Position numbers and translations under genes: made by a program. Positions 14,583-26,049 of a stretch of 34,445 bases of DNA are shown here, one piece after another (position 1 is the stretch's first letter; the number at the start of each line of letters is the position of its first letter). The notes under the pieces are model-generated. The model worked only from the letters and a program-made list of their open reading frames with translations. It was not told where the DNA came from and searched no databases. This DNA is from a virus, in the IMG/VR virus record IMGVR_UViG_3300025070_000122, positions 1 to 34,445 of that record, one strand, 5' to 3'.

Positions 14583-14765
14583 TTAATAATAGTCACCCTC
14601 ATAAGGGTCATAGTAGTCAGGCTCAGAAGGAACGTAAGGTTTACATGAATACCTATATCTCCAATCAGGGTACTTGTCAATCAAGTCACCAATCTCAGTG
14701 ACGTCAGGGTTGTACTCTATTACTGCTATGGTTCCACACTCATCCCAAAATATAGCTTCCAGCAT
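14583..14765 (-). CDS. Small acidic Tyr-rich protein, 60 aa
   Basis: Not recognised. Begins MLEAIFWDECGTIAVIEYNP and ends in a Pro/Asp/Tyr-rich tail (PSEPDYYDPYEGDYY) that is strongly acidic. SD GGAG precedes ATG 14765; the start overlaps the end of 14740-15120 by 26 bp. Acidic Tyr-rich tails of this kind could mimic nucleic acid, but there is no direct evidence. Confidence 0.6.
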   Translation of the reverse strand: MLEAIFWDECGTIAVIEYNPDVTEIGDLIDKYPDWRYRYSCKPYVPSEPDYYDPYEGDYY

Positions 14766-15120
14766 TAGCTCTCTCCATTGCTGTTATGTAGGGCTTACCA
14801 CTTACTCCCAAGTCAAGGCAAGCTATGTCACTGTTATACATTGCTTCACCTTCACTGTCAACAAAGGTAGCCGCCTTGTAAGGGTTATAAGATACGTAGT
14901 CCTCTTTGTAGATACCAGCATCAAAGCCATCAACTAACTCACCACGTACAAATGCGTGAACATTCTTTTTCTTATCACGTAATACCCTCGCCCGGCCAGC
15001 AGGTTGCACAACATAGGATGCATCTTTGAGGATAGCTTTGCAAACATGTGCAATCACCTTGCCTTTGTGCCGCATAGAGAAAACTTTCTTGTGCAAGTTA
15101 AAGTATATCTCAACTCTCAT
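14740..15120 (-). CDS. Conserved phage hypothetical protein, 126 aa
   Basis: I recognise the pattern EIYFNLHKKVFSMRHKGKVIAHV with RARVLRDKKKNVHAFVRGEL as a phage family of unknown function that recurs in several phage groups. ATG 15120 is chosen because GAGG lies 6 nt upstream; a start at 15135 would place the SD inside the gene. The N-terminus overlaps the 3' end of the gene 15110-15319 by 11 bp. The basic, aromatic sequence suggests nucleic-acid or protein binding rather than catalysis. Confidence 0.72.
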   Translation of the reverse strand: MRVEIYFNLHKKVFSMRHKGKVIAHVCKAILKDASYVVQPAGRARVLRDKKKNVHAFVRGELVDGFDAGIYKEDYVSYNPYKAATFVDSEGEAMYNSDIACLDLGVSGKPYITAMERANAGSYILG

Positions 15121-15319
15121 CTTCTTCCTCCCCAAACATGGCAGTCCAATCGGACTCAGTACACCCTGTCATGATGAACTCTCGCTCACTAGGGGAAGCG
15201 TCAGGGAAAGCATTTTGTGCAAGCTCACCCCGTTCCCATGCTGCAATCTGTGCAGCCGTTACATCTATCTCCATAGTGTTCACTTCACCTGTAAGTGATG
15301 ATCTTCTTTTGATCTGCAT
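15110..15319 (-). CDS. Conserved small phage protein, 69 aa
   Basis: The pattern MQIKRRSSLTGEVNTMEIDV, QIAAWERGELAQNAFPD and SEREFIMTGCTESDW is one I recall from small hypothetical proteins of diverse phages; function unknown. The 17-bp palindrome 15341-15357 ends 21 nt upstream of ATG 15319, followed by AAGGAG. The acidic tail EEEDES overlaps the next start. Likely expressed from the same leader cassette as its neighbours. Confidence 0.72.
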   Translation of the reverse strand: MQIKRRSSLTGEVNTMEIDVTAAQIAAWERGELAQNAFPDASPSEREFIMTGCTESDWTAMFGEEEDES

Positions 15320-15340
15320 TGTATTACTCCTTGGTGTTAG

Positions 15341-15357
15341 TGACGGATGGTCCGTCA
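15341..15357. repeat. 17-bp palindrome copy 3 (centre TGG)
   Basis: TGACGGATGGTCCGTCA, 21 nt upstream of ATG 15319. The TGA at its minus-strand 5' end is the stop codon of the preceding gene 15355-16080. Confidence 0.92.
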
Positions 15358-16080
15358 GTGATCTTGTACGAAACCGCTAGTATCTTTCTTGGCTTTGCCC
15401 TTGGCATACAGGGATACTACATGTCCACCCTGCGGGTCAAGGAAACGCAAGTCATCCTTGTCTCCGTCAATGACAGGCAAGCCACGCCATGTGTCAGGGA
15501 TGATGTGTTGGCTACGGAAAACTACTGCTGCATTCATGCCATTGTCCAAAGCCTTTGTCAACATGGCAGAGTATTCAGGGCTGGCATCACTGAACGACCA
15601 CGTTAGGTGGTAGTTGCGGATATGAGAAGTCTTACGGTTGGCAATCTTGGTGTAGTCATACCAGACTACATCAGGAAACATCTCAAAGATGTTAGCAAAG
15701 CCGTCAACCTTGATAAGCTCCCAACGTATATCTGTTGTACCGTTAAGACGTATACAGGGTTGGATACCACGCTTGACACAGTAGCGTTGAAACTTGGTGA
15801 CATCTACTACAAGTTGAGCCATGAAGCTATCACGGTCACGATAGAACCACTCAGCCTTACGCTGACGGGCAGTCTGCACACTATTCATAGCACCACGCCC
15901 TGCAGTATTGAGGCAACCCTCAATGCAGCCAGCAAGTACAGCCATGCTACATGAGTTGAACAGGTTGCCATCAACCATGACTTGCCAAGGTGTCATGTAC
16001 AGGATGCCTGTCATGTATTCTGAGCCATCGCCCTTGATGGTCTTAGCGTTATTGCCAACGCCTATAAGCTTGTATGTCAT
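15355..16080 (-). CDS. Conserved phage protein of unknown function (DUF7227-like), 241 aa
   Basis: The pattern GRGAMNSVQTARQRKAEWFYRD, IRLNGTTDIRWE, NIFEMFPDVVWYDYTK, NYHLTWSFSD, LPVIDGDKDDLRFLDP and a KGKAKKDTSGFV ending belongs to a phage family I have seen in actinophages and others (DUF7227-like by memory); no activity is established. Conserved Asp, Arg and aromatic positions hint at an enzyme. The stop codon is formed by the palindrome at 15341-15357, and a full cassette (covarying hairpin, palindrome, SD) precedes its start at 16080. Confidence 0.72.
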   Translation of the reverse strand: MTYKLIGVGNNAKTIKGDGSEYMTGILYMTPWQVMVDGNLFNSCSMAVLAGCIEGCLNTAGRGAMNSVQTARQRKAEWFYRDRDSFMAQLVVDVTKFQRYCVKRGIQPCIRLNGTTDIRWELIKVDGFANIFEMFPDVVWYDYTKIANRKTSHIRNYHLTWSFSDASPEYSAMLTKALDNGMNAAVVFRSQHIIPDTWRGLPVIDGDKDDLRFLDPQGGHVVSLYAKGKAKKDTSGFVQDH

Positions 16081-16101
16081 ATCGTATCTCCTTGGTTGTA
16101 G

Positions 16102-16118
16102 TGACGGATGGTCCGTCA
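16102..16118. repeat. 17-bp palindrome copy 4 (centre TGG)
   Basis: TGACGGATGGTCCGTCA, exactly 21 nt upstream of ATG 16080. Palindrome, spacer and SD are shared almost base for base with copy 5 at 16607. Confidence 0.92.
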
Positions 16119-16136
16119 GTAAGGTTAATCCATAAC

Positions 16137-16177
16137 AACAGTCCCATTAGATAAACAGGACTGCTATTAGAAGTCAA
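16137..16177 (-). promoter_or_regulatory. TTGAC box plus inverted-repeat leader of gene 15355-16080
   Basis: Minus strand TTGACT (16172-16177) begins shortly after the stop of 16182-16457. Inverted arms AGCAGTCC (16158-16165) and GGACTGTT (16137-16144) would pair over 8 bp with one G-U. The arms differ from those at 17907 and 18257 by paired changes. A -10-like TTATCT lies 17 bp after TTGACT. Confidence 0.6.
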
Positions 16178-16181
16178 CCCC

Positions 16182-16457
16182 CTAGCTATATTGCTCCTTA
16201 TATTCAGGACTTGCATACGTTAATGTCAAGCCTAATGTTGCCTCACGAATGTATGAGTCACCCATATCATAGGAACCATAGGTCATGGGCGTCTTCACTG
16301 CTACGAACCAACGTGCATACTTGTTCTCCCTCTCTTTAGAGGGTATCTGATACGTCTTAAGTAAGAGCATCTCTGTCTCCCCAAAGGGGCCTTCACCCTT
16401 GAATACAGCATACGGGTTGTCTTGCTTGCGGCTCTTGCCGAGTAAGTTTTTAGCCAT
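16182..16457 (-). CDS. Hypothetical protein, 91 aa
   Basis: Not firmly recognised. Begins MAKNLLGKSRKQDNPYAVFK and contains ETEMLLLKTYQIPSKEREN, KYARWFVAVKTPMTYGSYD and YIREATLGLTLTYASPEYKE, a pattern seen in short phage hypothetical proteins. The mixed beta-rich sequence suggests a small globular fold. ATG 16457 follows an AGGAG SD and lies 2 nt after the stop of the 41-residue gene. Its stop is followed closely by the TTGAC element of the next gene. Confidence 0.68.
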   Translation of the reverse strand: MAKNLLGKSRKQDNPYAVFKGEGPFGETEMLLLKTYQIPSKERENKYARWFVAVKTPMTYGSYDMGDSYIREATLGLTLTYASPEYKEQYS

Positions 16458-16459
16458 GA

Positions 16460-16585
16460 TTACTTCTCCTCTTTGATATTATATTTGCTCATAAGCCATG
16501 CACAGAAGTACTCAGCTTCCCATAGACTCACATGCTTAGTGAGTTCCTCCATCACTTCTTTCTTGATACGTTGTGTACTATTCAT
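16460..16585 (-). CDS. Small hypothetical protein, 41 aa
   Basis: Read directly: ATG 16585, 41 codons, TAA at 16460-16462. It has AAGGAG upstream and the palindrome 16607-16623 ends exactly 21 nt before the ATG, the same geometry as four other genes. The product (MNSTQRIKKEVMEELTKHVS...LMSKYNIKEEK) is an amphipathic helical protein. It lies directly before 16182-16457. Confidence 0.66.
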   Translation of the reverse strand: MNSTQRIKKEVMEELTKHVSLWEAEYFCAWLMSKYNIKEEK

Positions 16586-16787
16586 ACTGTGTCTCCTTGG
16601 TTGTAGTGACGGATGGTCCGTCAGTAGTTGATTGGATTATAGATTGCACTGTATCCCTACCTTTGTCAACATCAGGTTTGTATCTACGTAAACAAAACTT
16701 GTGATACTCTGTCTGCCATGCCTTGTCAGGACGCCTAGCATCCCTATCCCTAGAGTGTATCACGCTATGACCACCCGCCAGAACCAT
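16578..16787 (-). CDS. Hypothetical protein containing an in-frame palindrome, about 69 aa
   Basis: Uncertain. ATG 16787 (an upstream TTG at 16793 is possible) opens a basic frame (IHSRDRDARRPDKAWQTEYH, KFCLRRYKPDVDKG) that overlaps the end of the 34-residue membrane peptide gene and runs through palindrome copy 5, encoding Thr-Asp-Gly-Pro-Ser-Val near its C-terminus, to a stop just inside the 41-residue gene. The body has plausible coding character, whereas the tail looks like leader sequence read through. SD is weak. Confidence 0.45.
   Translation of the reverse strand: MVLAGGHSVIHSRDRDARRPDKAWQTEYHKFCLRRYKPDVDKGRDTVQSIIQSTTDGPSVTTTKETQYE
16607..16623. repeat. 17-bp palindrome copy 5 (centre TGG)
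   Basis: TGACGGATGGTCCGTCA, exactly 21 nt upstream of ATG 16585, and read in frame as Asp-Gly-Pro-Ser-Val by 16578-16787. Confidence 0.92.
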
Positions 16788-16869
16788 ACACAAGGTATAT
16801 AGTACCTACAAAGATGACTATGATAGCCAATAGCTCACACACTCTATCAAAAATATCTTTCTTGTCCAT
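16765..16869 (-). CDS. Small single-pass membrane protein, 34 aa
   Basis: Read directly: ATG 16869 shortly after SD AAGGA, overlapping the stop of 16869-17123, and 34 codons to TAG at 16765-16767. A charged N-terminus (MDKKDIFDRVCE) precedes a clear membrane helix (LLAIIVIFVGTIYLVYG) and a short Gly/Trp/Ser end. The topology suggests an inner-membrane peptide. Tight coupling to the upstream gene supports translation. Function unknown. Confidence 0.55.
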   Translation of the reverse strand: MDKKDIFDRVCELLAIIVIFVGTIYLVYGSGGWS

Positions 16870-17123
16870 CATGTATAGTCCTTCTGAACGTCAAACCCAG
16901 CCGCTTCCGCATACCCTGCTAGGTATTCAGCTATCTCTACAGCAGACATACGGTCTTCCGTTACCTTAACCCCATGATACGTACCTTCAGGCCAAAAGTG
17001 AGGCTCTGGTTGGCGGCGATACCAGAAGTCTGCATTACCCCTATCAAAGGGGGAGCCGTGTGATTTATCTGTGATGACGGATGGTCCGTCAGTAACAATA
17101 TCAGTCCACTTTGTGATAGTCAT
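16869..17123 (-). CDS. Conserved phage protein (SPFDRG family) with palindrome-encoded N-terminal insert, 84 aa
   Basis: The core HGSPFDRGNADFWYRR, PHFWPEGTYHG and EIAEYLAGYAEA matches a phage family of unknown function that I recall as normally beginning near the SPFDRG segment. Here about 20 extra residues precede it and include palindrome copy 6, encoding Thr-Asp-Gly-Pro-Ser-Val. Translation from ATG 17123 is supported by AAGGAG and an ATGA overlap with the gene upstream, so the palindrome really is within coding sequence. Confidence 0.75.
   Translation of the reverse strand: MTITKWTDIVTDGPSVITDKSHGSPFDRGNADFWYRRQPEPHFWPEGTYHGVKVTEDRMSAVEIAEYLAGYAEAAGFDVQKDYT
17075..17091. repeat. 17-bp palindrome copy 6 (centre TGG), in gene
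   Basis: TGACGGATGGTCCGTCA inside the N-terminal coding region of 16869-17123, translated as Asp-Gly-Pro-Ser-Val following Val-Thr. Confidence 0.92.
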
Positions 17124-17362
17124 TTGCCTACTCCTTCCAAGTGTTTACCCAACGCAATGTACACCTTGGATATGTCAGGGTCCGAGAATACAAAGCTGTC
17201 ATTACACAGCAGCGTATTGTACCCATGACGTACCTCTATCGTGAACGCACCACAGTGTAAGTCGATGTCTACACGTTGGGTTGATTTACTTTCTTTTTCT
17301 TGAAGCCCCAACGCTTCGTTAATCTGAGCCAGTTCCTCATCACTATAAAATAGATTAGTCAT
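17120..17362 (-). CDS. Hypothetical protein, 80 aa
   Basis: Not recognised. Begins MTNLFYSDEELAQINEALGL; the middle (RVDIDLHCGAFTIEVRHGYN, FVFSDPDISKVYIALGKHLEG) suggests an alpha/beta fold. AAGGAG lies 8-9 nt before ATG 17362 and a TTGAC/inverted-repeat leader is found at 17397-17437, but without the 17-bp palindrome. The stop forms an ATGA overlap with 16869-17123. Confidence 0.65.
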   Translation of the reverse strand: MTNLFYSDEELAQINEALGLQEKESKSTQRVDIDLHCGAFTIEVRHGYNTLLCNDSFVFSDPDISKVYIALGKHLEGVGK

Positions 17363-17396
17363 TTGTATTCTCCTTGCTTACGTTGTTGTTGTTGTT

Positions 17397-17437
17397 GGCT
17401 ACCCTATCAATAAACAGGATAGCCAGATGTTTGTCAA
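17397..17437 (-). promoter_or_regulatory. TTGACA box and inverted repeat, leader of 17120-17362
   Basis: Minus strand TTGACA (17432-17437) contains the TGA stop of 17434-17838. Arms GGCTATCC (17417-17424) and GGGTAGCC (17397-17404) pair over 8 bp with a single U-G in RNA. The architecture matches 16137, 17907 and 18257, but the arm sequence is different. Confidence 0.58.
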
Positions 17438-17838
17438 TAGCATTTAGGATTCGCTGGCTCTAAAGACAATTCCATGTCAAGCACATGCCAGCCATGAGGC
17501 ATACATAGGTACACATCATCATCTAACAAGCTCACAGCTATGTCACCTACAGACATAGAGGGGTGATTACCCATAGATACCACGTTAACGCCCTCGCCAA
17601 TGTGATTGTTACCCGCATTAAAGACTTGCTCTAAGGTGACGGACCCTCCGTCAGTAGCACTGATTAACATGGTCCTCTGGTAGAGGCCAAGGTTCAAGGC
17701 AGCAGTGACGCGCTCTTGAGCGTTATCCGGGCTAGGGAATAGCAAACCCATGTAAGCTTTAGCAAAAGAGCTTTCAGGGTGTCTATTCACAGCGTCCACT
17801 TGCGCTGTGCTCATGGGACGCTGGTAGATCATAAACAT
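17434..17838 (-). CDS. Hypothetical protein with in-frame palindrome, 134 aa
   Basis: Not recognised. Begins MFMIYQRPMSTAQVDAVNRH with FAKAYMGLLFPSPDNAQERV, a helical N-terminal half, then SATDGGSVTLEQVF, where palindrome copy 7 (centre CCC) supplies Asp-Gly-Gly-Ser-Val, followed by VNVVSMGNHPSMSVGDIAVS and YLCMPHGWHVLDMEL. The second half resembles a small beta-rich phage domain. Cassette elements precede it: hairpin 17907-17945, palindrome 17863-17879, AAGGAG and ATG 17838. Its stop lies in the TTGACA of the next leader. Confidence 0.68.
   Translation of the reverse strand: MFMIYQRPMSTAQVDAVNRHPESSFAKAYMGLLFPSPDNAQERVTAALNLGLYQRTMLISATDGGSVTLEQVFNAGNNHIGEGVNVVSMGNHPSMSVGDIAVSLLDDDVYLCMPHGWHVLDMELSLEPANPKCY
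17637..17653. repeat. 17-bp palindrome copy 7 (centre CCC), in gene
   Basis: TGACGGACCCTCCGTCA inside 17434-17838, translated on the minus strand as Asp-Gly-Gly-Ser-Val. Arms conserved, centre changed. Confidence 0.9.
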
Positions 17839-17862
17839 GATGTAATCTCCTTGGTTGGTTGG

Positions 17863-17879
17863 TGACGGACAATCCGTCA
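17863..17879. repeat. 17-bp palindrome copy 8 (centre CAA)
   Basis: TGACGGACAATCCGTCA, 24 nt upstream of ATG 17838, one codon length longer than the 21-nt rule of the other leader copies. Confidence 0.9.
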
Positions 17880-17906
17880 GTAGCGGCTCTAATCTTGAAC
17901 CATAAC

Positions 17907-17945
17907 AACAACCCCATAAAGAGCAGGGTTGCTGATATAAGTCAA
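17907..17945 (-). promoter_or_regulatory. TTGACT box and inverted repeat, leader of 17434-17838
   Basis: Minus strand TTGACT (17940-17945) contains the TGA stop of 17942-18199. Arms AGCAACCC (17926-17933) and GGGTTGTT (17907-17914) pair over 8 bp with one G-U. Near-identical to the copy at 18257-18295; the interval around a possible -10 is less conserved (TTTATG). Confidence 0.6.
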
Positions 17946-18199
17946 GCTTTATCGGCGTAATCTTGTGCTTTCTTTAAAGTATTGGGCAAGCTTTCGGCGC
18001 TAACATAGCCTTGCACATCATCATGATAGTACGAATCTTCGTAAGCCCACTTATCATGTAGCCAAAAGCCTGTATTAACGAACTGGTCATCCTTGAATAG
18101 GGCAACCTCGACATGATGCATGTATGCACTACCCGCACCTACATCTTGTGACATAGAAAACGTGTAACCGTTACCTAATGTTAGTTTAATATTCCGCAT
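17942..18199 (-). CDS. Hypothetical protein, 85 aa
   Basis: Not recognised. MRNIKLTLGNGYTFSMSQDV suggests an N-terminal beta strand; SAYMHHVEVALFKDDQFVNTGFWL and AYEDSYYHDDVQGYVSAESL indicate an alpha/beta fold rich in His and aromatic residues. A full cassette lies upstream: hairpin 18257-18295, palindrome 18221-18237 ending 21 nt before ATG 18199, and AAGGAG. The product resembles its neighbours in size and acidity, consistent with a host-takeover set. Confidence 0.66.
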   Translation of the reverse strand: MRNIKLTLGNGYTFSMSQDVGAGSAYMHHVEVALFKDDQFVNTGFWLHDKWAYEDSYYHDDVQGYVSAESLPNTLKKAQDYADKA

Positions 18200-18220
18200 T
18201 GCCTTACTCCTTGGTTGTAG

Positions 18221-18237
18221 TGACGGACCGTCCGTCA
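18221..18237. repeat. 17-bp palindrome copy 9 (centre CCG)
   Basis: TGACGGACCGTCCGTCA, exactly 21 nt upstream of ATG 18199. Confidence 0.92.
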
Positions 18238-18256
18238 GTTAAAGTTAATCCATAAC

Positions 18257-18295
18257 AACAACCCCATATAAAACAGGGTTGCTGATATAAGTCAA
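18257..18295 (-). promoter_or_regulatory. TTGACT box and inverted repeat, leader of 17942-18199
   Basis: Minus strand TTGACT (18290-18295) contains the TGA stop of 18292-18540. Arms AGCAACCC (18276-18283) and GGGTTGTT (18257-18264) pair over 8 bp. TTTATA lies 17 bp after TTGACT, so it may also be a sigma70-like promoter. Confidence 0.62.
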
Positions 18296-18540
18296 CCTTT
18301 ATAGTCGAAAAACTCCTCAACGTCATCCGTTATGTTAACGGGGTATATTTCATGCTCGGCCTTGTATATGTAAGGCTCCTTGCCTTCAGGGTATCCGTCA
18401 GACGCCCAATCGTGGCGGCAGTCAAGATAGTCCGATGTAGCCGCGAACTTGTTATCATATTCACGTGTATCCTCGAAATCTTGATGATACATTACAACGT
18501 GATACGTGGTTTTCGTTATGCGATTTTTAACTGTAGACAT
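18292..18540 (-). CDS. Hypothetical protein, 82 aa
   Basis: Not recognised. MSTVKNRITKTTYHVVMYHQDF, then FAATSDYLDCRHDWASDGYP and HEIYPVNITDDVEEFFDYKG; acidic with many aromatics. AAGGAG precedes ATG 18540. Its leader lacks the 17-bp palindrome but carries a perfect parS site (18567-18582) about 26 bp upstream of the start codon, downstream of the terminator at 18607-18624. ParB bound there could influence its transcription. Confidence 0.66.
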   Translation of the reverse strand: MSTVKNRITKTTYHVVMYHQDFEDTREYDNKFAATSDYLDCRHDWASDGYPEGKEPYIYKAEHEIYPVNITDDVEEFFDYKG

Positions 18541-18566
18541 GTGTACTCTCCTTGGTACGGGTTGAA

Positions 18567-18582
18567 TGTTTCACGTGAAACA
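18567..18582. promoter_or_regulatory. Perfect parS site 1 (ParB-binding palindrome)
   Basis: TGTTTCACGTGAAACA equals the 16-bp consensus of chromosomal parS in bacteria including Caulobacter. It lies in the leader of 18292-18540. An extra half-site GTGAAACA is present immediately beside it. No parB is seen in the window. Confidence 0.88.
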
Positions 18583-18606
18583 ATGTGTGAAACAAGAGGT
18601 TAATAA

Positions 18607-18624
18607 CAAGCCCCGAAGGGCTTG
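18607..18624 (-). terminator. Rho-independent terminator after 18642-19250
   Basis: Minus-strand CAAGCCC-TTCG-GGGCTTG: 7-bp GC-rich stem capped by a UUCG tetraloop, followed by TTATT, 18 bp beyond the stop codon. It separates the first leftward gene from the parS-bearing leader of the next. Confidence 0.75.
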
Positions 18625-18641
18625 CAGTTAACTCCTCGCTT

Positions 18642-19250
18642 TTAGGCTTTGCCTTTGTTCTGGCTACGCAATTCCTTAGCGAATGTGTCCTTGTCTAAGC
18701 CGTGGACGGCGATCATGTCGAGTACATATGCAGCCAGTTCCGCTTCCGTCATGGCCTCGGCAAACGGGTGATTTTCAGTGACGGATGGTCCGTCAGCAGC
18801 AGCAGCAGACTTGGCCTTGCCTTTTCCTTTGGAAACATTGCCAGCCGATGCCGCTTTGCCCTCGTTTTTGGCTTTCTTGTTTTCGTTCCGAAAGCGCTTC
18901 ACAATCGCTGAGTTCTTAAGATCGACTTTCCAATCGTCCCGCTTTCTGAGGCGAAGGATTGCAGGGAAATTAGAGGCGATCACCATCATGTCATTACGAT
19001 CACGGCGATCGACATTGCCCAAACCCGTTTTCATGATTTCGGTGTGAAAGATTTGATCGGATTTGTGAAGTGAACGGATGCCAAGAAATATCGAGCCAAG
19101 CTCATTGTATCCGTCAAGCATGGACTCAGCCTGAAGGCACAGTGTGTCAAATACGGCTTCACCGTGGGCTACAGCTTGGGCTTGGGTAAACTGTGTGCCG
19201 TTGAATGTGAAAGTGCCAGTGACCGTTGCAGTTGCTGTGTTGTTAGTCAT
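18642..19250 (-). CDS. Hypothetical protein, first gene of the leftward arm, 202 aa
   Basis: Not recognised. Thr/Ala-rich N-terminus, a helical middle (GYNELGSIFLGIRSLHKSDQ, MMVIASNFPAILRLRKRDD), then a flexible Lys/Ala-rich linker (NENKKAKNEGKAAS, GKGKAKSAAAADGPSVTE) and a C-terminal helix pair (EAELAAYVLDMIAVHGLDKD). The linker contains palindrome copy 10 in frame (Asp-Gly-Pro-Ser-Val). As the first gene of the early arm, with its own terminator, it is a candidate regulator or host-interaction protein; the basic middle would fit DNA binding. AAGGAG precedes ATG 19250. Confidence 0.72.
   Translation of the reverse strand: MTNNTATATVTGTFTFNGTQFTQAQAVAHGEAVFDTLCLQAESMLDGYNELGSIFLGIRSLHKSDQIFHTEIMKTGLGNVDRRDRNDMMVIASNFPAILRLRKRDDWKVDLKNSAIVKRFRNENKKAKNEGKAASAGNVSKGKGKAKSAAAADGPSVTENHPFAEAMTEAELAAYVLDMIAVHGLDKDTFAKELRSQNKGKA
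18779..18795. repeat. 17-bp palindrome copy 10 (centre TGG), in gene
   Basis: TGACGGATGGTCCGTCA in the linker-coding part of 18642-19250, translated as Asp-Gly-Pro-Ser-Val after an Ala run. Confidence 0.92.
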
Positions 19251-19367
19251 GTCGAAAACTCCTTGTTTGTGGCGTTGTTGCCGTTTCGATGTCTTAACTT
19301 CTGCCCGATGGTCCGAAAAAGGTCAAGCTCTTTTCCCGTGCATTATGCGAAAGAAAAAGGAGGATGG

Positions 19368-19384
19368 TGACGGACGGTCCGTCA
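19368..19384. repeat. 17-bp palindrome copy 11 (centre CGG)
   Basis: TGACGGACGGTCCGTCA in the leader region of the leftward arm, 117 bp upstream of ATG 19250, so it does not follow the 21-nt rule. A plus-strand SD-like AAGGAGG adjoins it. Confidence 0.9.
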
Positions 19385-19396
19385 GAAGCCGATTTT

Positions 19397-19441
19397 AGTG
19401 AGAACGAATTAGCAACACCAGTGAGAACGAATTAGCAACAC
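19397..19441. repeat. Tandem direct repeat, 22 bp x 2, period 23
   Basis: AGTGAGAACGAATTAGCAAC plus AC occurs at 19397-19418 and again at 19420-19441 without mismatch. Such paired iterons often bind replication or regulatory proteins; here function is unknown. Confidence 0.85.
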
Positions 19442-19802
19442 TGCCTCGCGTGACGTTATGTGATGACACATGATGTAGGCGTTATGCGCTAGGGGTAGGC
19501 ATTATGTGACGTCATGTCATACGTTACATGCATAAATCTGCCTGTTCTATGCGTCGGGCGTATGATCACATGTAATACGCGCATATGTAAGCATGTAATG
19601 ATACCTAATCAGTAGGAAAACCTATAGAAAACAACAGCTTAGGCTCATATATGCCCACATTATGCGTCCAAGCGCACATGATGACCCGCACAGACGGGTA
19701 CGGGCGAGGGCCACCCCCCCGTTAGGCGTTACGTATGTATGTACACTGCAACACACGGGGTTTTTCAATAGCACACGCTTACGTTGTAGAGCACATTTAT
19801 GC

Positions 19803-19831
19803 TTGACTCGGTAGTAAATCTCCTGTATCAT
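19803..19831 (+). promoter_or_regulatory. Rightward promoter TTGACT-N17-TATCAT
   Basis: TTGACT (19803-19808) and TATCAT (19826-19831) at the optimal 17-bp spacing. Transcription would start near 19838, placing the parS at 19859 in the initially transcribed region. Confidence 0.6.
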
Positions 19832-19858
19832 ACTTTTATGTACACTGAGATAGCTAAT

Positions 19859-19874
19859 TGTTTCACGTGAAACA
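19859..19874. promoter_or_regulatory. Perfect parS site 2
   Basis: TGTTTCACGTGAAACA, identical to site 1 and to the consensus, about 30 bp downstream of the rightward -10 box at 19826-19831. Confidence 0.88.
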
Positions 19875-19923
19875 TTAAGAAGACATAGAAGTTTCCTATA
19901 CGAAACATATAGTGGAGACATTT

Positions 19924-19977
19924 ATGGTACATATATCATTATTCCTACAGATCAGCCAAAAGAGAGGCTTGACATAG
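19924..19977 (+). CDS. Possible 17-aa leader peptide
   Basis: ATG 19924 follows GGAG at 19914-19917 with good spacing and gives MVHISLFLQISQKRGLT before TAG at 19975. The stop lies just past the TTGACA of the next promoter. Could be a leader peptide or chance; there is no further support. Confidence 0.25.
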   Translation: MVHISLFLQISQKRGLT

Positions 19978-19996
19978 GGTAATATCTGTGTAAAAC
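19969..19996 (+). promoter_or_regulatory. Rightward promoter TTGACA-N16-TAAAAC
   Basis: TTGACA (19969-19974), 16-bp spacer, TAAAAC (19991-19996). About 165 bp upstream of the first gene of the rightward arm; the intervening leader is AT-rich and contains the GTATAC repeats. Confidence 0.5.
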
Positions 19997-20160
19997 TACG
20001 TAGTAGTAGTAGCCTATGTATACATTTAAAGTATACAGTTATGTATAAACCAAAAAATAGTATACTACTCTTTAAATCAGCCTAAGAATAGTTCACATTA
20101 ATGTATACATACACTAACAATCCTTTTTATTTTAACCTTAATTAAAAATAGTAGTTGACA

Positions 20161-20430
20161 ATGTCTAAAAAAAGAGTAAAACTTACTGCAAGTGAGAATG
20201 TAATAGAAGAGTATTACAAAGCTCTTGTATCAAACAACCCTCGTTCTGTATTACAAGTACACATTCCTAAGTCAGACGTCTTTTATGTACGTAAAGCCAT
20301 AGAAGAAGCGACAGGGGAAAGATATACTTTAGACCATGTAGAACGTTCTATGTATTTAGAGGGCCATTTATCTCGTAATGAGGTATTAGACCCGGATAGA
20401 CCTAGAGGATACTGTAGTTACGATGCCTAG
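20161..20430 (+). CDS. Hypothetical protein, first gene of the rightward arm, 89 aa
   Basis: Not recognised as a named family. ATG 20161 is chosen over a TTG two codons upstream; SD is weak. Basic N-terminus MSKKRVKLTASENVIEEYYK, then VLQVHIPKSDVFYVRKAIEEATGERYTLDHVERSMYLEG, a compact helical pattern I associate with small proteins of marine podoviruses and cyanophages. As the first rightward gene it may be regulatory. Its stop overlaps the ATG of the holin-like gene. Confidence 0.6.
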   Translation: MSKKRVKLTASENVIEEYYKALVSNNPRSVLQVHIPKSDVFYVRKAIEEATGERYTLDHVERSMYLEGHLSRNEVLDPDRPRGYCSYDA

Positions 20431-20614
20431 ACAACACTTTGATGATTGGAAAGTAATGCCACGGCTAATGATGCTTGTGGTTACGCTGTTAACTTACCAA
20501 GTTACACATTGGTACATGGGTTTACCTGATCCTACCATACAGCAGAGTGGACTTGTATCAGTTGTAATGGGTGCATTAACTGGTTGTTTTGCAATATGGA
20601 TGGGTAAAGAATAA
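20423..20614 (+). CDS. Holin-like membrane protein, 63 aa
   Basis: Two hydrophobic segments (MPRLMMLVVTLLTYQVTHWYM and SGLVSVVMGALTGCFAIWMG) separated by a short polar turn, with a charged tail, giving a class II holin-like topology. It directly precedes a GTA-type 3TM holin gene (shared base at 20614) and the M15 endopeptidase, forming a lysis cassette. It could be a holin or antiholin of the pair. Short length and absence of motifs limit certainty. Confidence 0.68.
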   Translation: MPRQHFDDWKVMPRLMMLVVTLLTYQVTHWYMGLPDPTIQQSGLVSVVMGALTGCFAIWMGKE

Positions 20615-20967
20615 TGATAGGACAACTCATAGGTAGCCTTACAGGTTTAGCCACAAGTATCATTGATGGTAAGACCCAGATTAAACTCACAGAAGCTGAG
20701 ATAAAAAAGAAACAGCTTACAGGTGAGTTAGATTGGGACTTGGAAGCTATGAGGGCTACTGAGAACTCATGGAAGGATGAATGGATTACTTTGTTGTTTA
20801 GCATTCCGCTTATCTTAGCTTTCTGTGGTGATTGGGGTAACGACATAGTAGCACGTGGGTTTGCAGCGTTGGAGGTTATGCCTCAGTGGTATCAGATTGC
20901 GTTAGGTGGTATTGTAAGTGCATCCATAGGAATGCGTTCAGTGAGTAAGTTCTTTGGAAAGAAATAA
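20614..20967 (+). CDS. GTA holin/3TM holin family protein (PF11351-like), 117 aa
   Basis: Begins MIGQLIGSLTGLATSIIDGK, then a charged amphipathic helix (TQIKLTEAEIKKKQLTGELD), WKDEWITLLFSIPLILAFCG and a C-terminal membrane segment MPQWYQIALGGIVSASIGMRSVSK. This order (N-terminal helix, charged middle, WKDE before a membrane helix) is typical of the 3TM holin family found in gene-transfer agents and phages of alphaproteobacteria. Forms pores releasing the endopeptidase. Upstream neighbour is another membrane protein. Confidence 0.84.
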   Translation: MIGQLIGSLTGLATSIIDGKTQIKLTEAEIKKKQLTGELDWDLEAMRATENSWKDEWITLLFSIPLILAFCGDWGNDIVARGFAALEVMPQWYQIALGGIVSASIGMRSVSKFFGKK

Positions 20968-20980
20968 CAATGTCCTAAAA

Positions 20981-21088
20981 ATGCCACAGTTAAGCGACAT
21001 AGACAGGCAGTTTATTACATTAGAAAAACAACAGCAAGAAATACGAGAGCAAGCAAAGCTCATAGAGGAGAAACGAAATGGGGTTTAA
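20981..21088 (+). CDS. Small coiled-coil protein in lysis cassette, 35 aa
   Basis: Read directly: ATG 20981, 35 codons, TAA at 21086-21088, overlapping the start of the endopeptidase gene (21078). The sequence MPQLSDIDRQFITLEKQQQE... is a charged helix. It has no good SD, but its 3' end contains the SD (AGGAG) of the endopeptidase gene, so translation could be coupled. Position between holin and endolysin is where spanin or control peptides occur, but no lipobox or membrane segment is present. Confidence 0.45.
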   Translation: MPQLSDIDRQFITLEKQQQEIREQAKLIEEKRNGV

Positions 21089-21530
21089 GTTATCATCACG
21101 TAGTATTAGTAGGCTTGAGGGTGTTGATTCAGGACTAATAACTGTAGTTAATGCAGCTATAGACATGACTAAAGTTGACTTTGGTGTAACTTGTGGTATG
21201 CGTACAGTAGCCGAGCAGGAAGCTTTGGTTGCAAAGGGTGCATCACAAACTATGAAAAGCAAACACTTAGAGGGTCGTGCAGTAGACCTTGTAGCTTACG
21301 TTGGTCCTAACGTTACGTGGGCTTTGAATATGTATGACGATATAGCTGACGCTATGGCTGACGCTGCACGTATTCACGGTGTAGCTATTAAGTGGGGAGC
21401 AGCTTGGAGTGTAGGCAACATTGCTGAGTGGGACGGTTCTATGGAGGATGCAATGAATGCATACGTAGACCTTCGCCGTTCACAAGGTCGTAGGCCCTTT
21501 ATTGATGCTCCCCATTTTGAACTTATGTAA
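21078..21530 (+). CDS. Peptidoglycan endopeptidase, peptidase M15 (L-alanyl-D-glutamate/D-Ala-D-Ala type)
   Basis: Endolysin candidate, 150 aa. Zinc ligands in the order of M15 peptidases: His63 in MKSKHLEGRAVDLVAY, Asp70 in the same motif, and His146 in IDAPHFEL, with Asp143 a likely catalytic acid position and WGAAW at 106-110. The FGVTCGMRTVAEQEALVAKGAS region is typical of phage M15 enzymes. Cleaves the peptide stem of the cell wall after holin opening. AGGAG precedes ATG 21078. Confidence 0.92.
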   Translation: MGFKLSSRSISRLEGVDSGLITVVNAAIDMTKVDFGVTCGMRTVAEQEALVAKGASQTMKSKHLEGRAVDLVAYVGPNVTWALNMYDDIADAMADAARIHGVAIKWGAAWSVGNIAEWDGSMEDAMNAYVDLRRSQGRRPFIDAPHFELM

Positions 21531-21535
21531 GCAGT

Positions 21536-21727
21536 ATGTACACGTTTGTTCTTATGGTGTATCTAGGTACAACTAGAGAACTAATAGAGGATACGATGGT
21601 GTTTAACAATATAGAGCATTGTAACTACTACGCTAGAGAGATAACTAAGAGATACAGCACACACGGTATAGCTCCTGAAGATAGGGTTGTAGCTTATTGT
21701 TTACCTAAAGTCAGGGAGCTAAAATGA
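21536..21727 (+). CDS. Hypothetical protein, 63 aa
   Basis: Begins MYTFVLMVYLGTTRELIEDT with FNNIEHCNYYAREITKRY and a CLPKV ending. I recall similar short proteins in marine podoviruses following the lysis genes; no function known. The N-terminal hydrophobic run is too short for a confident membrane helix. Its stop overlaps the next ATG by 4 bp, supporting translation. Confidence 0.6.
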   Translation: MYTFVLMVYLGTTRELIEDTMVFNNIEHCNYYAREITKRYSTHGIAPEDRVVAYCLPKVRELK

Positions 21728-22002
21728 GTATTACATATAGAGGTGAAAAGTTTGCAGGTTATAACAAGCCGAAGCGTACCCCTGATCACCCGAAAAAAAG
21801 TCATGCCGTACTTGCAAAAGAAGGTAAGACCATCAAGCTCATCAGGTTCGGTGAACAGGGAGCGAAGACCGCCGGGAAACCAAAGTCAGGTGAAACGGAC
21901 AAGATGAAAAAGAAACGTGCATCCTTTAAAGCAAGACACGGTAAGAACATTAAAAAAGGTAAACTAAGTGCAGCATATTGGGCTGATAAAGTAAAATGGT
22001 AG
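21724..22002 (+). CDS. Conserved small basic phage protein, 92 aa
   Basis: Pattern TIKLIRFGEQGAKTAGKPKS, KMKKKRASFKARHGKNIKKG and KLSAAYWADKVKW is shared with small basic proteins of cyanophages and other marine phages. It is very basic and may bind DNA or act as an internal virion protein. ATGA overlap with the preceding gene. Function unknown. Confidence 0.72.
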   Translation: MSITYRGEKFAGYNKPKRTPDHPKKSHAVLAKEGKTIKLIRFGEQGAKTAGKPKSGETDKMKKKRASFKARHGKNIKKGKLSAAYWADKVKW

Positions 22003-22038
22003 CACGTATGTGTACTGCCTCTATTTGGAGATAAATTA

Positions 22039-22902
22039 ATGATGAATAAAAAGAAAGCTGGTGCCTATATGGGTGGTGGCATGGCTAAAAAGAAAAAACC
22101 TATGGCGGCAACAGGTTACAAAGAGGGTGGTGACACTAAGAAAAAAGAAACTTTTGGTCAGGCGTTTAAACGTAGCCGTAAAAAGTTTATAAATAGTGGC
22201 AGTGCTGCAGACTACACCTTTAAACACAATGGAAAGTCTTACAACATTCTTCAAAAGGGTGAGACTAAAGCTGGTGTAATGAAAAAGTTCTCTGCACCTA
22301 AGACATCTGTACGTCCTAAGACACGGCCTAGTGCAGGTATCTCTGCTAATACTAAGAAGAAGATTGAAGAGACAGTTAGAAAAGTAGCTACTCCTTCTGC
22401 AACTACTTCTAAAGACAAAGGTAGTTCATATGAAGAAAGGCAAAAGCAATTACGTAAGGATAAAGCAGCCGCTGCAAAGCGCAGAGGTATAGGCGCAGGT
22501 TCTTTTGCAGGTAAGGGTGCAGGTAAAGATAAACCTAAAGCCAAACCTACACGTAAAGCTGATGGTGTTCCCGCTAGGTTGCGTGAAAAAACAACTGATG
22601 GACTTCCTAAAGGTATTGGAGGGATGCTTAATCGTAAAGATGAGCCGGGCGCACCTTTCTTAGGATCAAAGGGTGGTAAATCTGCTAAAGCAAAAGCTGC
22701 TAACAGTGCAAAAGTTGCTGCAGGACAAGCTAAGTATAGAGATAGAGGAACACCTGTACAGCTTACTCTTTCACGAAGAAACTTGCGTAAGTTTAAAAAA
22801 GACCCGTCTTCTTTGACTAAGATAGAAAAAGATCGTTTATTTAAAACTTTAAAGCGTCAAGGTGTTGCTATTCCTAAAGGTCTTTCTGGAAACAATCGGT
22901 AG
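22039..22902 (+). CDS. Lys/Ala-rich protein with Gly-Gly motifs, 287 aa
   Basis: Strongly basic, low-complexity protein: MNKKKAGAYMGGGMAKKKKP, GYKEGGDTKKK, then alternating Lys/Ser/Ala stretches and Pro-rich linkers (KDKPKAKPTRKADGVPARL). The short Gly-Gly motifs recur in neighbouring small proteins (23118, 23496) and in 28193-29755 and 29942-32044. It may be DNA-condensing or a virion-internal protein; no enzyme motif. ATG 22039 and the next codon ATG are both possible starts; AGATAAATTA upstream lacks a clear SD, but GGAG lies at 22027-22030. Confidence 0.65.
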   Translation: MMNKKKAGAYMGGGMAKKKKPMAATGYKEGGDTKKKETFGQAFKRSRKKFINSGSAADYTFKHNGKSYNILQKGETKAGVMKKFSAPKTSVRPKTRPSAGISANTKKKIEETVRKVATPSATTSKDKGSSYEERQKQLRKDKAAAAKRRGIGAGSFAGKGAGKDKPKAKPTRKADGVPARLREKTTDGLPKGIGGMLNRKDEPGAPFLGSKGGKSAKAKAANSAKVAAGQAKYRDRGTPVQLTLSRRNLRKFKKDPSSLTKIEKDRLFKTLKRQGVAIPKGLSGNNR

Positions 22903-22963
22903 GACTTAATAAATAAATTGCATAACGGGGTTGCAATCTTGTATGTAGTCCTGTAACATAAAG

Positions 22964-23008
22964 CATGGTATAACTATCTCTGGTAATACATAGAGGAGTT
23001 ATACCATG
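22964..23008 (+). promoter_or_regulatory. 12-bp perfect inverted repeat covering the DUF1127 start codon
   Basis: CATGGTATAACT (22964-22975) and AGTTATACCATG (22997-23008) are exact reverse complements with a 21-nt loop. The 3' arm ends with the ATG of the DUF1127 gene and touches its GAGGAG SD, so an RNA hairpin would mask the start codon. The first arm also contains TATAAC. Confidence 0.8.
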
Positions 23009-23158
23009 TTTAAGAAATTTATCAAAGTACTACAAGAGAGCCAACAGCGCAGAGTACAATACTGGCAGTTACACAATATGTCAGATGCCTCTCTTAAAGA
23101 CATTGGAGTCACACGTGGTGAAATCAAGCAGAAGTTCTACGGCAAAGACTGTATCTAA
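23006..23158 (+). CDS. DUF1127 family small protein, 50 aa
   Basis: Read directly: ATG 23006, SD GAGGAG, 50 codons, TAA at 23156. The core QRRVQYWQLHNMSDASLKDIGVTRGEIKQKF matches the DUF1127 pattern (basic/aromatic start, LSDxxLxDIGLTRxxI), a small Arg-rich family typical of alphaproteobacteria that has been linked to RNA turnover in Agrobacterium and Rhodobacter. In a phage it may redirect host RNA metabolism. Its start lies in a hairpin. The following gene 23118-23357 overlaps it in another frame. Confidence 0.8.
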   Translation: MFKKFIKVLQESQQRRVQYWQLHNMSDASLKDIGVTRGEIKQKFYGKDCI

Positions 23159-23357
23159 AGCGAAACCTAAGAGAGGCTACGCTAAGGGTGGGTCAACAGT
23201 AAATGCGGCAGGTAATTATACTAAGCCTAGTATGCGTAAGTCTCTTGTCGCATCCGTTAAGGCTGGCGGCAAAGGAGGAAAGCCCGGCCAGTGGTCGGCT
23301 CGTAAAGCTCAAATGGTTGCCAAGCAATACAAAGCAAAAGGTGGAGGGTACACGTAA
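23118..23357 (+). CDS. Basic Gly-Gly-motif protein, 79 aa
   Basis: The frame is open from an ATG at 23085, but GTG 23118 (or 23115) fits better: GGAG at 23105-23108 and the overlap with DUF1127 is shorter. The product runs SRSSTAKTVSKAKPKRGYAK, GGSTVNAAGNY, GGKGGKPGQWSARKAQMVAK, ending KAKGGGYT; the KPGQWSARKAQ pattern is one I recall from DUF5872-like basic phage proteins. Its stop shares a base with the next ATG (TAATG). Confidence 0.68.
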   Translation: MKSSRSSTAKTVSKAKPKRGYAKGGSTVNAAGNYTKPSMRKSLVASVKAGGKGGKPGQWSARKAQMVAKQYKAKGGGYT

Positions 23358-23512
23358 TGAAAGTAGACGCACCTAAAGGTTATCATTGGATGAAACAAAA
23401 AGATGGCAGCTTAAAACTAATGAAGCATGACGGTAAGTTTGTTCCTCACAAGGGGGCAAGCCTTACTGCTAACTTTGCTGTACAGAAAAAACACAATGCC
23501 AAACAAAAGTAA
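23357..23512 (+). CDS. Small basic protein, 51 aa
   Basis: Read directly: ATG 23357 (TAATG junction with the previous stop), 51 codons, TAA at 23510. MKVDAPKGYHWMKQKDGSLK with LMKHDGKFVPHKGASLTANF is a pattern recalled from marine podoviruses. Basic and His-rich, probably a virion or DNA-associated protein. The next gene starts inside it at 23496. Confidence 0.65.
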   Translation: MKVDAPKGYHWMKQKDGSLKLMKHDGKFVPHKGASLTANFAVQKKHNAKQK

Positions 23513-23816
23513 AACAACTAAAGCAAAGAAAAAGCCAACCGCCAAGATGAACTCTGGCGGTTTAGCTTCAAGTCAAAAGAGCCTTAAGTCGTGGACTAAG
23601 CAGGATTGGAGAACTAAAAGTGGTAAACCTTCTACGCAAGGTCCAAAGGCTACAGGAGAACGTTACTTGCCAGCTAGTGCTATTAAGGCTATGGGTGCTG
23701 GTACGTATGCTGCGTCTTCAGCAAAAAAGAGAGCAGATACAGCAAAAGGTAAACAGTTCTCTAAGCAGCCTAAGAAAGCGGCTAAAGCGTCTAGGGCGCA
23801 CAGGAGAATAACGTGA
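23496..23816 (+). CDS. Conserved basic phage protein (DUF6321-like), 106 aa
   Basis: ATG 23496 is preferred over the longer frame from 23427, which would overlap the previous gene. KSLKSWTKQDWRTKSGKPST, GPKATGERYLPASAIKAMG and KKRADTAKGKQFSKQPKKA match a conserved small protein of cyanophages and T4-like phages (DUF6321-like, by memory). Very basic; contains one NSGGLAS Gly-Gly motif. The end overlaps the terS start by 4 bp. Confidence 0.72.
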   Translation: MPNKSKTTKAKKKPTAKMNSGGLASSQKSLKSWTKQDWRTKSGKPSTQGPKATGERYLPASAIKAMGAGTYAASSAKKRADTAKGKQFSKQPKKAAKASRAHRRIT

Positions 23817-24181
23817 GCAAAAAGTTAAATGAAAAGCAACAACTCTTTATGCAGGTCTTGTTTGATGAGGCCCAAGGAGATGTTGTACAAGCTAAGAAGT
23901 TAGCAGGTTACTCAGATGGTACTGCTACACGTATAATAGTTGAAGCTTTAAAGGATGAAATCTTTGAGGCTACTAAAACTTATATGTCTAGGCTTGGCCC
24001 TAAAGCTGCTGTAGCTTACGGTAGTGCACTTATGGACCCTACACAGTTAGGCATTAAAGAGAAAATGGTAGCAGCAGGGCAGATACTAGATCGTGCTGGT
24101 GTTGTTAAAACTGAAAAGGTTGCTGTTGAGTCTAGTGGTGGATTGTTTATCTTACCACCTAAAGAGGGCAGTGATGCCTGA
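23813..24181 (+). CDS. terS: Terminase small subunit-like protein, 122 aa
   Basis: Recognises phage DNA for packaging. N-terminal LNEKQQLFMQVLFDEAQGDVVQAKKLAGYSDGTATR is the helix-turn-helix start found in many phage small terminases, followed by a helical oligomerisation region (KEKMVAAGQILDRAGVV) and a flexible tail ending LPPKEGSDA. GTG 23813 is the start, overlapping the previous gene by 4 bp. The large terminase follows after one intervening gene. Confidence 0.78.
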   Translation: MSKKLNEKQQLFMQVLFDEAQGDVVQAKKLAGYSDGTATRIIVEALKDEIFEATKTYMSRLGPKAAVAYGSALMDPTQLGIKEKMVAAGQILDRAGVVKTEKVAVESSGGLFILPPKEGSDA

Positions 24182-24584
24182 CTTCTTTGCTGAAAACGAC
24201 TTAGGCTTTTGGATGTTACCTAAGCCTGACAAGATGAAGAAGTGGGAAAGAATACCAAGGTTAGTCAAACCTGTGCCTTGGGGTTACGAGATAGACCCTG
24301 ATAACAAAGAATGGTTAAATCCTATCGTTAGAGAACTAGAACTATTAGAGCTTGCAAAGAAACATTTAAAGCAGTATAGTTATAGAGAAGTTTCTGCTTG
24401 GTTAACTACACAGTCAGGTAGAAGTATATCTCACATGGGTTTAAAGAAAAGAGTAGACATTGAGCGAAAACGTAAAACAGTTGCTAGAATTAAACGTGAG
24501 CTTGCCAAAAGGCTCCAAAAAGCCATCTCGCATTACGAAACGCTTGAAAAAGAAAGGGTCGGCTACTACACCCAAGCCAACTAA
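24174..24584 (+). CDS. HTH-containing packaging-region protein, 136 aa
   Basis: Start ATG 24174 (MPDFFAENDLGFWMLPKPDK) overlaps the terS stop. Central YSYREVSAWLTTQSGRSISHMGLKKR looks like a helix-turn-helix of the resolvase/sigma type, and the C-terminus is a long basic helix (KRKTVARIKRELAKRLQKAI). Similar proteins precede terL in marine podoviruses by memory; role unknown, possibly a second DNA-recognition subunit. Its last 125 bp overlap the start of terL. Confidence 0.66.
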   Translation: MPDFFAENDLGFWMLPKPDKMKKWERIPRLVKPVPWGYEIDPDNKEWLNPIVRELELLELAKKHLKQYSYREVSAWLTTQSGRSISHMGLKKRVDIERKRKTVARIKRELAKRLQKAISHYETLEKERVGYYTQAN

Positions 24585-26049
24585 AAAAGTTTCACGTGAA
24601 ACAAAACAGAAGGTTCCTGCTACTCCTATAGCTCAACCCTTTGATGTAGAGGAAGCGCAGAACATTGTCTTCAAACCTAACGCAGGGCCACAGACAGACT
24701 ACTTAGCTTCTAGTGAACGTGAGGTTTTATATGGCGGGGCAGCGGGTGGAGGTAAGAGTTACGCTACACTAGCAGACCCTTTACGCAGTCTTAACCATAA
24801 AGACTTCAGTGGGTTACTTGTACGGCATACTACAGAAGAACTTAGGGAGCTTATACAGAAAAGTCAAGAGTTGTACCCTAAAGCAATTCCCGGTATTAAG
24901 TGGTCAGAGCGTAAGTCACAATGGGTTACACCTAGAGGTGGGCGCATTTGGATGAGTTACCTAGACAAAGACCAAGACGTTATGCGCTACCAAGGACAGG
25001 CGTTTAACTACATTGCATTTGATGAGTTAACACAATGGGCTACACCGTTTGCGTGGAACTATATGCGCTCACGCTTACGTAGCTCCGCACCTGAGTTAGG
25101 CTTGTATATGAGAGCTACAACTAACCCCGGTTCTATTGGGCATCAATGGGTAAAGAAGATGTTTATTGATCCTTCTAAACCTAACAAGCCTTTCTGGGCT
25201 ACTGATATTGAAACAGGGGAACGCTTAGAGTACCCTAAAGGCCACACTAAAGCAGGACAACCTTTGTTTAAACGTAGGTTTATACCTGCCAGTTTGTTTG
25301 ATAATCCTTATCTAGCTGACAGTGGTGACTACGAAACTATGCTTTTATCTATGCCAGAGCATCAACGCAAACAACTATTAGAAGGAAACTGGGATGTCAA
25401 TGAGGGTGCAGCGTTCCCTGAGTTCAACAGAAAAATACATGTTGTTGACCCTTATGACATACCTAATAGCTGGACGAAGTTCAGAGCTTGCGATTACGGC
25501 TACGGCAGTTGGACAGGTGTTGTGTGGTTTGCTGTGTCTCCCTCAGAGCAACTGGTAATATACAGAGAGATGTATGTCACCAGAGTTACAGCTACAGACT
25601 TAGCTGATATGATCTTAGAGGCAGAGGCAGACGATGGCACCATAAGATACGGCGTGTTGGACTCGTCCCTCTGGCATAAAAGAGGTGACACTGGGCCTAG
25701 CCTAGCTGAACAAATGATTATGAGGGGCTGTCGCTGGAGGCCGTCTGATCGTTCAAAAGGGTCTAGGGTTTCAGGTAAAAATGAGATACACCGCCGTTTG
25801 CAGGTAGATGAGTTTACTGAGGAACCCCAACTCGTATTCTTTTCTACCTGCACCAACTCTATAGCGCAACTACCTAGTCTACCGTTAGACAAACGCAATC
25901 CAGAAGATGTTGATACAAATGCAGAAGACCACTTGTATGATGCTATACGTTACGGTATAATGACTAGACCACGAAGCTCCCTATGGGATTTTAATCCTGC
26001 AACACAGAGAAGCGGCTTTCAAGCTGCTGATCCTACATTTGGATATTAA
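24460..26049 (+). CDS. terL: Terminase large subunit
   Basis: Packages DNA into proheads. The 529-residue frame starts at TTG 24460 (no in-frame ATG before the ATPase; a GTG at 24493-24499 is an alternative). Walker A GGAAGGGKS (92-100), Walker B YIAFDE (184-189), coupling region RATTNPG, and the nuclease aspartates Asp345 (RACDYGYGSW), Asp401 (YGVLDSS) and Asp490/494 (EDHLYDAIRYG). The first 60 residues are a basic, low-complexity extension that contains VSRET, encoded by the parS-like site 24588-24603. Downstream portal starts two bases after the stop. Confidence 0.94.
   Translation: MSENVKQLLELNVSLPKGSKKPSRITKRLKKKGSATTPKPTKKVSRETKQKVPATPIAQPFDVEEAQNIVFKPNAGPQTDYLASSEREVLYGGAAGGGKSYATLADPLRSLNHKDFSGLLVRHTTEELRELIQKSQELYPKAIPGIKWSERKSQWVTPRGGRIWMSYLDKDQDVMRYQGQAFNYIAFDELTQWATPFAWNYMRSRLRSSAPELGLYMRATTNPGSIGHQWVKKMFIDPSKPNKPFWATDIETGERLEYPKGHTKAGQPLFKRRFIPASLFDNPYLADSGDYETMLLSMPEHQRKQLLEGNWDVNEGAAFPEFNRKIHVVDPYDIPNSWTKFRACDYGYGSWTGVVWFAVSPSEQLVIYREMYVTRVTATDLADMILEAEADDGTIRYGVLDSSLWHKRGDTGPSLAEQMIMRGCRWRPSDRSKGSRVSGKNEIHRRLQVDEFTEEPQLVFFSTCTNSIAQLPSLPLDKRNPEDVDTNAEDHLYDAIRYGIMTRPRSSLWDFNPATQRSGFQAADPTFGY
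24588..24603. promoter_or_regulatory. parS-like site 3 (15/16 match) inside terL
   Basis: AGTTTCACGTGAAACA differs from the parS consensus only at its first base; the 14-bp core GTTTCACGTGAAAC is perfect. It lies in codons for VSRET in the N-terminal extension of terL. Confidence 0.8.

Follow-up and report, generated by a model that had tools for sequence, protein, structure and literature searches.

The window analyzed here is the whole of a 34,445-base linear virus record (IMGVR_UViG_3300025070_000122). It carries three copies of the 14-base pair (bp) core GTTTCACGTGAAAC of parS, the host centromere sequence read by the chromosome-segregation protein ParB. Two of them (sites 1 and 2) lie within perfect copies of the 16-bp consensus TGTTTCACGTGAAACA, while the third (site 3), AGTTTCACGTGAAACA, matches at 15 of 16 positions and at 14/14 positions of the core; all three therefore combine the consensus with the intact core that we used to define chromosomal-type parS. 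Site 1 is in the leader of an early gene for an 82-amino acid (aa) protein, with an AAGGAG Shine-Dalgarno sequence between the site and the ATG. Site 2 begins 27 nucleotides (nt) after the -10 hexamer of a rightward promoter, and site 3 is inside the gene for the terminase large subunit (terL). Sites 1 and 2 are 1.3 kilobases (kb) apart and flank both the first early gene and the rightward promoter (Table 1). A sequence-only reading of this DNA had reported two perfect copies and one 15/16 copy at these three positions; our scan of the window bore this out and adds that the promoter at site 2 is that of the rightward late unit.

The scan, which allowed up to five mismatches, found no near-misses, as the next-best match in the window has five. 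From base composition, ~0.00015 exact cores are expected per window. Shuffled windows contained on average 0.19 matches at three or fewer mismatches, and 0/100 reached three matches, in line with the earlier statement that the copies are not due to chance.

Table 1. Positions of the parS sites and neighboring features in the window
Feature	Position	Strand	Remarks
parS site 1, perfect	18567..18582		Leader of leftward early gene, ~27 nt upstream of the gene start
parS site 2, perfect	19859..19874		Initially transcribed region of the rightward promoter
parS site 3	24588..24603		5′ part of terL; encodes V-S-R-E-T
82-aa early leftward gene	18292..18540	-	Leader contains site 1
Strong stem-loop	18590..18640	-	Separates site 1 from the upstream gene; resembles a terminator or processing element
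202-aa first leftward early gene	18642..19250	-	Without family match
Sigma-70-like promoter, TTGACT-17-TATCAT	19803..19831	+	Rightward (late) unit; consensus match only
91-aa first gene of rightward unit	20155..20430	+	
Endolysin, peptidase M15-like	21078..21530	+	Marks the rightward unit as lysis/late
Terminase large subunit (terL)	24460..26049	+	Position of start codon uncertain
Tyrosine integrase	11289..12287	-	
Palindrome TGACGGA-N3-TCCGTCA, 11 copies	12874..19384 (span)		Several in early-gene leaders, in the slot that site 1 occupies

The exact 16-mer was present in 58 of 61 Rhodobacterales genomes, usually twice and ~1.9 kb apart, which agrees with the earlier claim that the sites match the chromosomal parS of bacteria including alphaproteobacteria. 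In one Rhodobacteraceae bin, a copy lay a short way downstream of an mnmE-like gene, and in a Pelagibacter bin the variant seen at the window terL site was found within an rsmG-like gene adjoining parA, where it also encodes VSRET (genes in both bins were named by eye). Judged by their sequence, the window sites are chromosomal-type parS, identical to the parS of the likely host order.

No ParB was detected in the window, as the sequence-only reading had stated. Profiles PF02195 (ParB_N) and TIGR00180 (parB_part), which both detect ParB in most control genomes, had no match in the window or in its relatives. No ParA was recognized by eye in the list of open reading frames (ORFs) of the window, a list that was not searched with a ParA profile. 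Orphan status could be followed beyond the window in a relative, G007 (locus L229; IMG/VR, 57,846 bp), which is collinear with the window (DNA polymerase 87% and TerL 91% identical) and which we consider complete because its ends overlap exactly by 112 bp inside thyX. G007 holds exactly three perfect parS sites. One accompanies the late promoter, one lies at the 5′ end of terL, and the third (48059) is at the convergent junction of the leftward unit with the end of the rightward one, where it directly follows a hairpin that can be seen in the sequence; neither profile found ParB in this genome. On the basis of this complete relative, we rejected a phage ParB encoded outside the window. Two of the refutations named by the sequence-only reading, a ParB elsewhere on the phage and a lack of the sites in close relatives, were thus checked, and neither came true. 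Since the equivalent of the G007 junction site would fall outside the window, a fourth site may exist in the genome from which the window derives.

Selection acts on the sites. Among 80 TerL relatives, the terL site was present in all 11 with TerL at least 93% identical to that of the window; the remaining 69 lacked parS, the sole exception being L143, with a match at two mismatches that lies far from terL. A tree built from 120 TerL proteins grouped the 11 distinct carriers in one clade (support 99), and the terL-site trait required one change, compared to 10.7 for shuffled labels. The five codons that make up the site (GTT-TCA-CGT-GAA-ACA) were invariant in 12/12 loci compared. Of the codons flanking them, 0/12 before and 0/20 after were invariant, with insertions and deletions around the site, and elsewhere in terL 83 of 243 (34%) degenerate codons with invariant amino acids were also invariant as codons. 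Thus, the terL parS is constrained at the DNA level.

Relatives likewise retain the late-promoter site, at a distance of 275-352 nt upstream from the 91-aa ORF, while the promoter sequence around it has diverged; in the diverged relatives L208, L228 and L238, promoter-like sequence is visible upstream of the site. Site 1 was also found in L123 and L207. Two genomes, L208 and L209, fall elsewhere in the TerL tree, in a different clade near the phage HMO-2011, yet have the late-promoter site at -275 and a 91-aa ORF 89-92% identical to that of the window, so that a control module has likely been exchanged between subgroups. In L257 and L258 the site is ~0.9-1 kb upstream of the 91-aa ORF. As these four genomes also carry sites, the trait was gained or exchanged more than once. 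None of 14 related HMO-2011-type genomes (13 isolates and one uncultured record) has parS, indicating a trait of a subclade and not of HMO-2011-type phages in general.

The leaders of early genes offer a comparison with palindromes of the phage's own. In the window, copies of TGACGGA-N3-TCCGTCA lie at 12874, 14401, 15341, 16102, 16607, 17075, 17637, 17863, 18221, 18779 and 19368, several of them in early-gene leaders with the order palindrome, short gap, AAGGAG, ATG; ahead of one early gene, site 1 takes the palindrome's place. This palindrome is absent from G007 and from a second relative, G011, which instead have 9 and 10 copies, respectively, of GTCGGAT-N1-ATCCGAC (two mismatches allowed), largely in leaders. 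These elements look like lineage-specific operators or leader stem-loops, similar to stoperators. Immunity-type operators change between relatives, as the palindrome does here, whereas parS is invariant. The simplest reading of this difference is that the protein reading parS is not encoded by the phage, and it points to a host-encoded reader. An exact 22-bp duplication, AGTGAGAACGAATTAGCAACAC, was also seen at 19397-19441 in the divergent intergenic region.

Both the DNA polymerase and the TerL of the window group with those of HMO-2011-type phages, which are marine. In full-length tblastn comparisons, the polymerase was 53-65% identical to those of HMO-2011, CRP-1, CRP-2, CRP-207, CRP-345 and CRP-603, and its translation contains a CxxC-rich insert, a trait of the group described as a DnaJ-like zinc-finger insert; TerL was 82% identical to that of CRP-2 and 74% to that of HMO-2011. 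HMO-2011-type isolates infect roseobacters, SAR116 and SAR11, and the host of the window phage is taken from these related isolates only. We rejected host assignment through prophages, as the matching contigs sat in bins of unrelated phyla and were most likely mis-binned phage. GANTC is depleted across the window (52 occurrences, compared to 101 expected from dinucleotides and 78 from trinucleotides), as might be expected for phages whose hosts have CcrM-type methylation, and the window contains no full CtrA sites.

The leftward genes, between 19,250 and 1, comprise early genes and genes for replication and nucleotide metabolism. The late unit runs rightward from 20,155 through the 91-aa ORF, endolysin, TerS, TerL, portal and coat, an assignment based on the window genes and on comparison with the annotation of CRP-603 and CRP-2. 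The 82-aa early gene behind site 1 has no Pfam or PHROG match, and the stem-loop beside that site is predicted to fold with -24.5 kcal/mol (z = -5.7). The tyrosine integrase makes a temperate life style possible, and most phages of subgroups I and III carry such integrases (PMC9038755). We rejected by reasoning the idea that parS is the attachment site of this integrase, as parS is present in several copies, all at a distance of more than 6 kb from it. A 149-aa ORF (9178-9627, minus strand) resembles, by eye, a fragment of a Na/Pi cotransporter; genes of this type were reported in eight subgroup I genomes (PMC9038755).

Sites of this kind are not peculiar to the window phage. The perfect 16-mer occurred in 286 of 50,697 phage records (824 strand-wise places, or ~412 sites, with a masked query), while two composition-matched scrambled palindromes occurred in 0 and 0 records; many of the parS records are near-copies (87 from Listeria), and the number of independent lineages is far smaller. 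A scan of IMG/VR gave at least 119 stretches with parS, compared to 0 and 10 for two control palindromes. Among the IMG/VR matches listed, 43% of sites were non-coding, compared to 9% of random positions. ParB scored above the cut-off in 1 of 50 parS-bearing contigs, many of which are fragments. TIGR00180 found no ParB in complete multi-site records, among them Roseobacter phage DSS3P8 (three perfect sites), Gordonia phage Woes, Bacillus phage vB_BcoS-136, Vibrio phage phi 3 and an inovirus; recognizable ParB was found in none of the complete parS-bearing phages examined. Perfect 16-mers were also present in the phi29-type relatives B103, Goe1, BSP11 and Chedec 11. In the T5-like Vibrio phage phi 3 (L286), a perfect parS (2001-2016) lies between A1 and A2 within the terminal repeat, a one-mismatch site is nearby, and the pair recurs near the other genome end. 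The 5.8-kb inovirus, bajarodino virus 69 (L308), has about five perfect parS sites (10 strand-wise places).

Since the phage carries exact parS but not ParB, the virus most likely recruits host ParB to control its genome, hold it, or both. We consider it very probable that host chromosomal ParB binds the sites. The fuller model that best accommodates our data, for which we would give slightly less than an even chance, is that the sites act as a titratable brake and tether on the phage genome. In this model, the sites would be functional host-type centromere sites read by host chromosomal ParB and not by a phage protein; each site would load ParB dimers, which, as CTP clamps, would then slide along the adjacent 1-2 kb. 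With sites 1 and 2 so close together on either side of the late promoter and the first early gene, the divergent control region would be covered by ParB. At low phage copy number, the nucleoprotein would brake late (lysis and packaging) transcription and the genome would be associated with the host origin and ParA machinery; this holding state would resemble lytic deferment or a carrier state. Once the genome replicates, the added parS copies would outnumber ParB and release the brake. ParB represses promoters beside parS (PMC5521831), and in Caulobacter it is reported to spread at most 2 kb around individual parS sites (PMC5815017); together with this local repression and short-range spreading, the placement of sites 1 and 2 favors a titratable brake. 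The model also draws on the exact match to the parS of the likely host order, the lack of ParB in the window and in G007, the constraint within terL, the retention of the late-promoter site amid diverging flanks, the invariance of parS beside changing palindromes and the large non-coding share of sites in IMG/VR. Our analysis establishes the sites, their conservation, the missing ParB, the identity to host parS and the placement at control elements, from which binding, spreading, repression, titration and tethering are inferred. Against this model, isolated HMO-2011-type phages manage without parS sites, the host is assigned through relatives, and neither the terL site nor the junction site of G007 is at a promoter, positions that fit loading or tethering better than repression.

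Those two positions are better accommodated by the main rival, which is compatible with a brake: host ParABS, perhaps with SMC, would hold an extrachromosomal, non-lytic phage genome and distribute it to daughter cells, and the placement at promoters would be incidental. We regard this explanation as unlikely, though it deserves to be taken seriously. In G007, parS is scattered across the genome, at a divergent and a convergent position and in terL, the integrase suggests that a non-lytic state exists, the element SGI1 is stabilized by parS mimics (PMC10954446), and Spo0J mediates entrapment of phi29 in spores (reviewed in PMC9437464). An integrating phage, however, needs no partition system, and small phages such as the inovirus carry sites too. 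Sites 1 and 2 occur within a leader and by a promoter, respectively, and additional parS copies on a chromosome can do harm, depending on where they lie (PMC5815017). If the sites were instead a decoy, many replicated copies would titrate ParB off the host origin, and the phage would benefit from the resulting disturbance of host segregation or the cell cycle. Orphan, multi-copy sites, of which vB_BcoS-136 has four, are what such a sink would look like, but two to three sites per genome are few for it. Moreover, a sink could do without conserved positions, yet relatives keep the sites in terL and at the late promoter; this lowers the likelihood of a pure decoy, which we judge improbable.

It is more doubtful still that a phage-encoded DNA-binding protein reads the palindrome, or that it acts as a leader RNA stem-loop, with its identity to parS a coincidence. 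Sites 1 and 2 are in leaders, where other phage palindromes occur, and a 6-bp RNA hairpin can form at site 1. However, the 16/16 identity to host parS recurs in many unrelated phages in which composition-matched palindromes are absent or rare, and we saw no compensatory parS variants, whereas the phage's own palindromes vary. Chance or neutral carry-over of host DNA has a negligible probability. Capture of host DNA is a general possibility, but the sites are conserved across a clade and against diverging flanks, and chance is excluded by the expected number, the shuffles, the scrambled palindromes and this conservation.

If host ParB reads the sites, a conserved chromosome-segregation protein would double as a phage regulator or tether, and, in abundant ocean bacteria, viral development would be tied to the cycle of host replication and segregation. 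Because the sites are enriched across unrelated phages, laboratory phage-host pairs with sites exist in which this is directly testable, such as Ruegeria pomeroyi DSS-3 and DSS3P8. A broader proposal, to which we give somewhat less credence than to the brake and tether in the window phage, is that many phages have convergently evolved to place the host centromere sequence in their control regions. In this widespread strategy, host ParB would brake or tether an incoming genome in a manner sensitive to copy number. It would span phages of Alphaproteobacteria, Actinobacteria and Firmicutes and even small inoviruses.

The sequence-only reading knew of no description of such sites for this phage group. 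The open-access literature searched likewise yielded no report of orphan parS in HMO-2011-type phages and no general account for phages; the phenomenon itself is not peculiar to the group, given the hundreds of phage records and the precedent of phi29 and Spo0J. Phage-encoded ParABS of the phage-plasmid type places ParB on the same genome as its sites, and ParB is on neither the window nor G007. Extrachromosomal mycobacteriophage prophages encode their own partition proteins, unlike the window phage. The likeness lies in the partition sites on the phage genome (PMC7157519).

Use of another replicon's ParB through parS mimics is already known for SGI1, which exploits the ParABS of IncC plasmids (PMC10954446); SGI1 is an integrative mobilizable element using plasmid ParB, whereas here a phage would use chromosomal ParB. 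At parS3 and parS4 of P. aeruginosa, intergenic parS sites also adjoin genes whose transcription ParB lowers, but the locus is a native chromosomal one (PMC5521831). Phage use of host cell-cycle and segregation proteins is likewise known, from phi29 with Spo0J and Spo0A and from lytic deferment through CtrA (PMC9437464). CtrA-regulated phages of Alphaproteobacteria have host-regulator sites in promoters of uncharacterized genes, and their use arose independently in several phage lineages (PMC9437464); there, the host factor is a response regulator and not a centromere-binding clamp, and titration by copy number is not part of the model. Also close to our proposal is phi29, a ParB-less phage that relies on host chromosomal ParB (Spo0J) and whose promoters a host factor represses (Meijer et al., 2005, reviewed in PMC9437464). 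The phi29 system differs in its sporulating Gram-positive host and in its repressor, which is Spo0A and not ParB, while the window phage has no known spore to enter and carries its sites at a late promoter, in an early leader and in terL.

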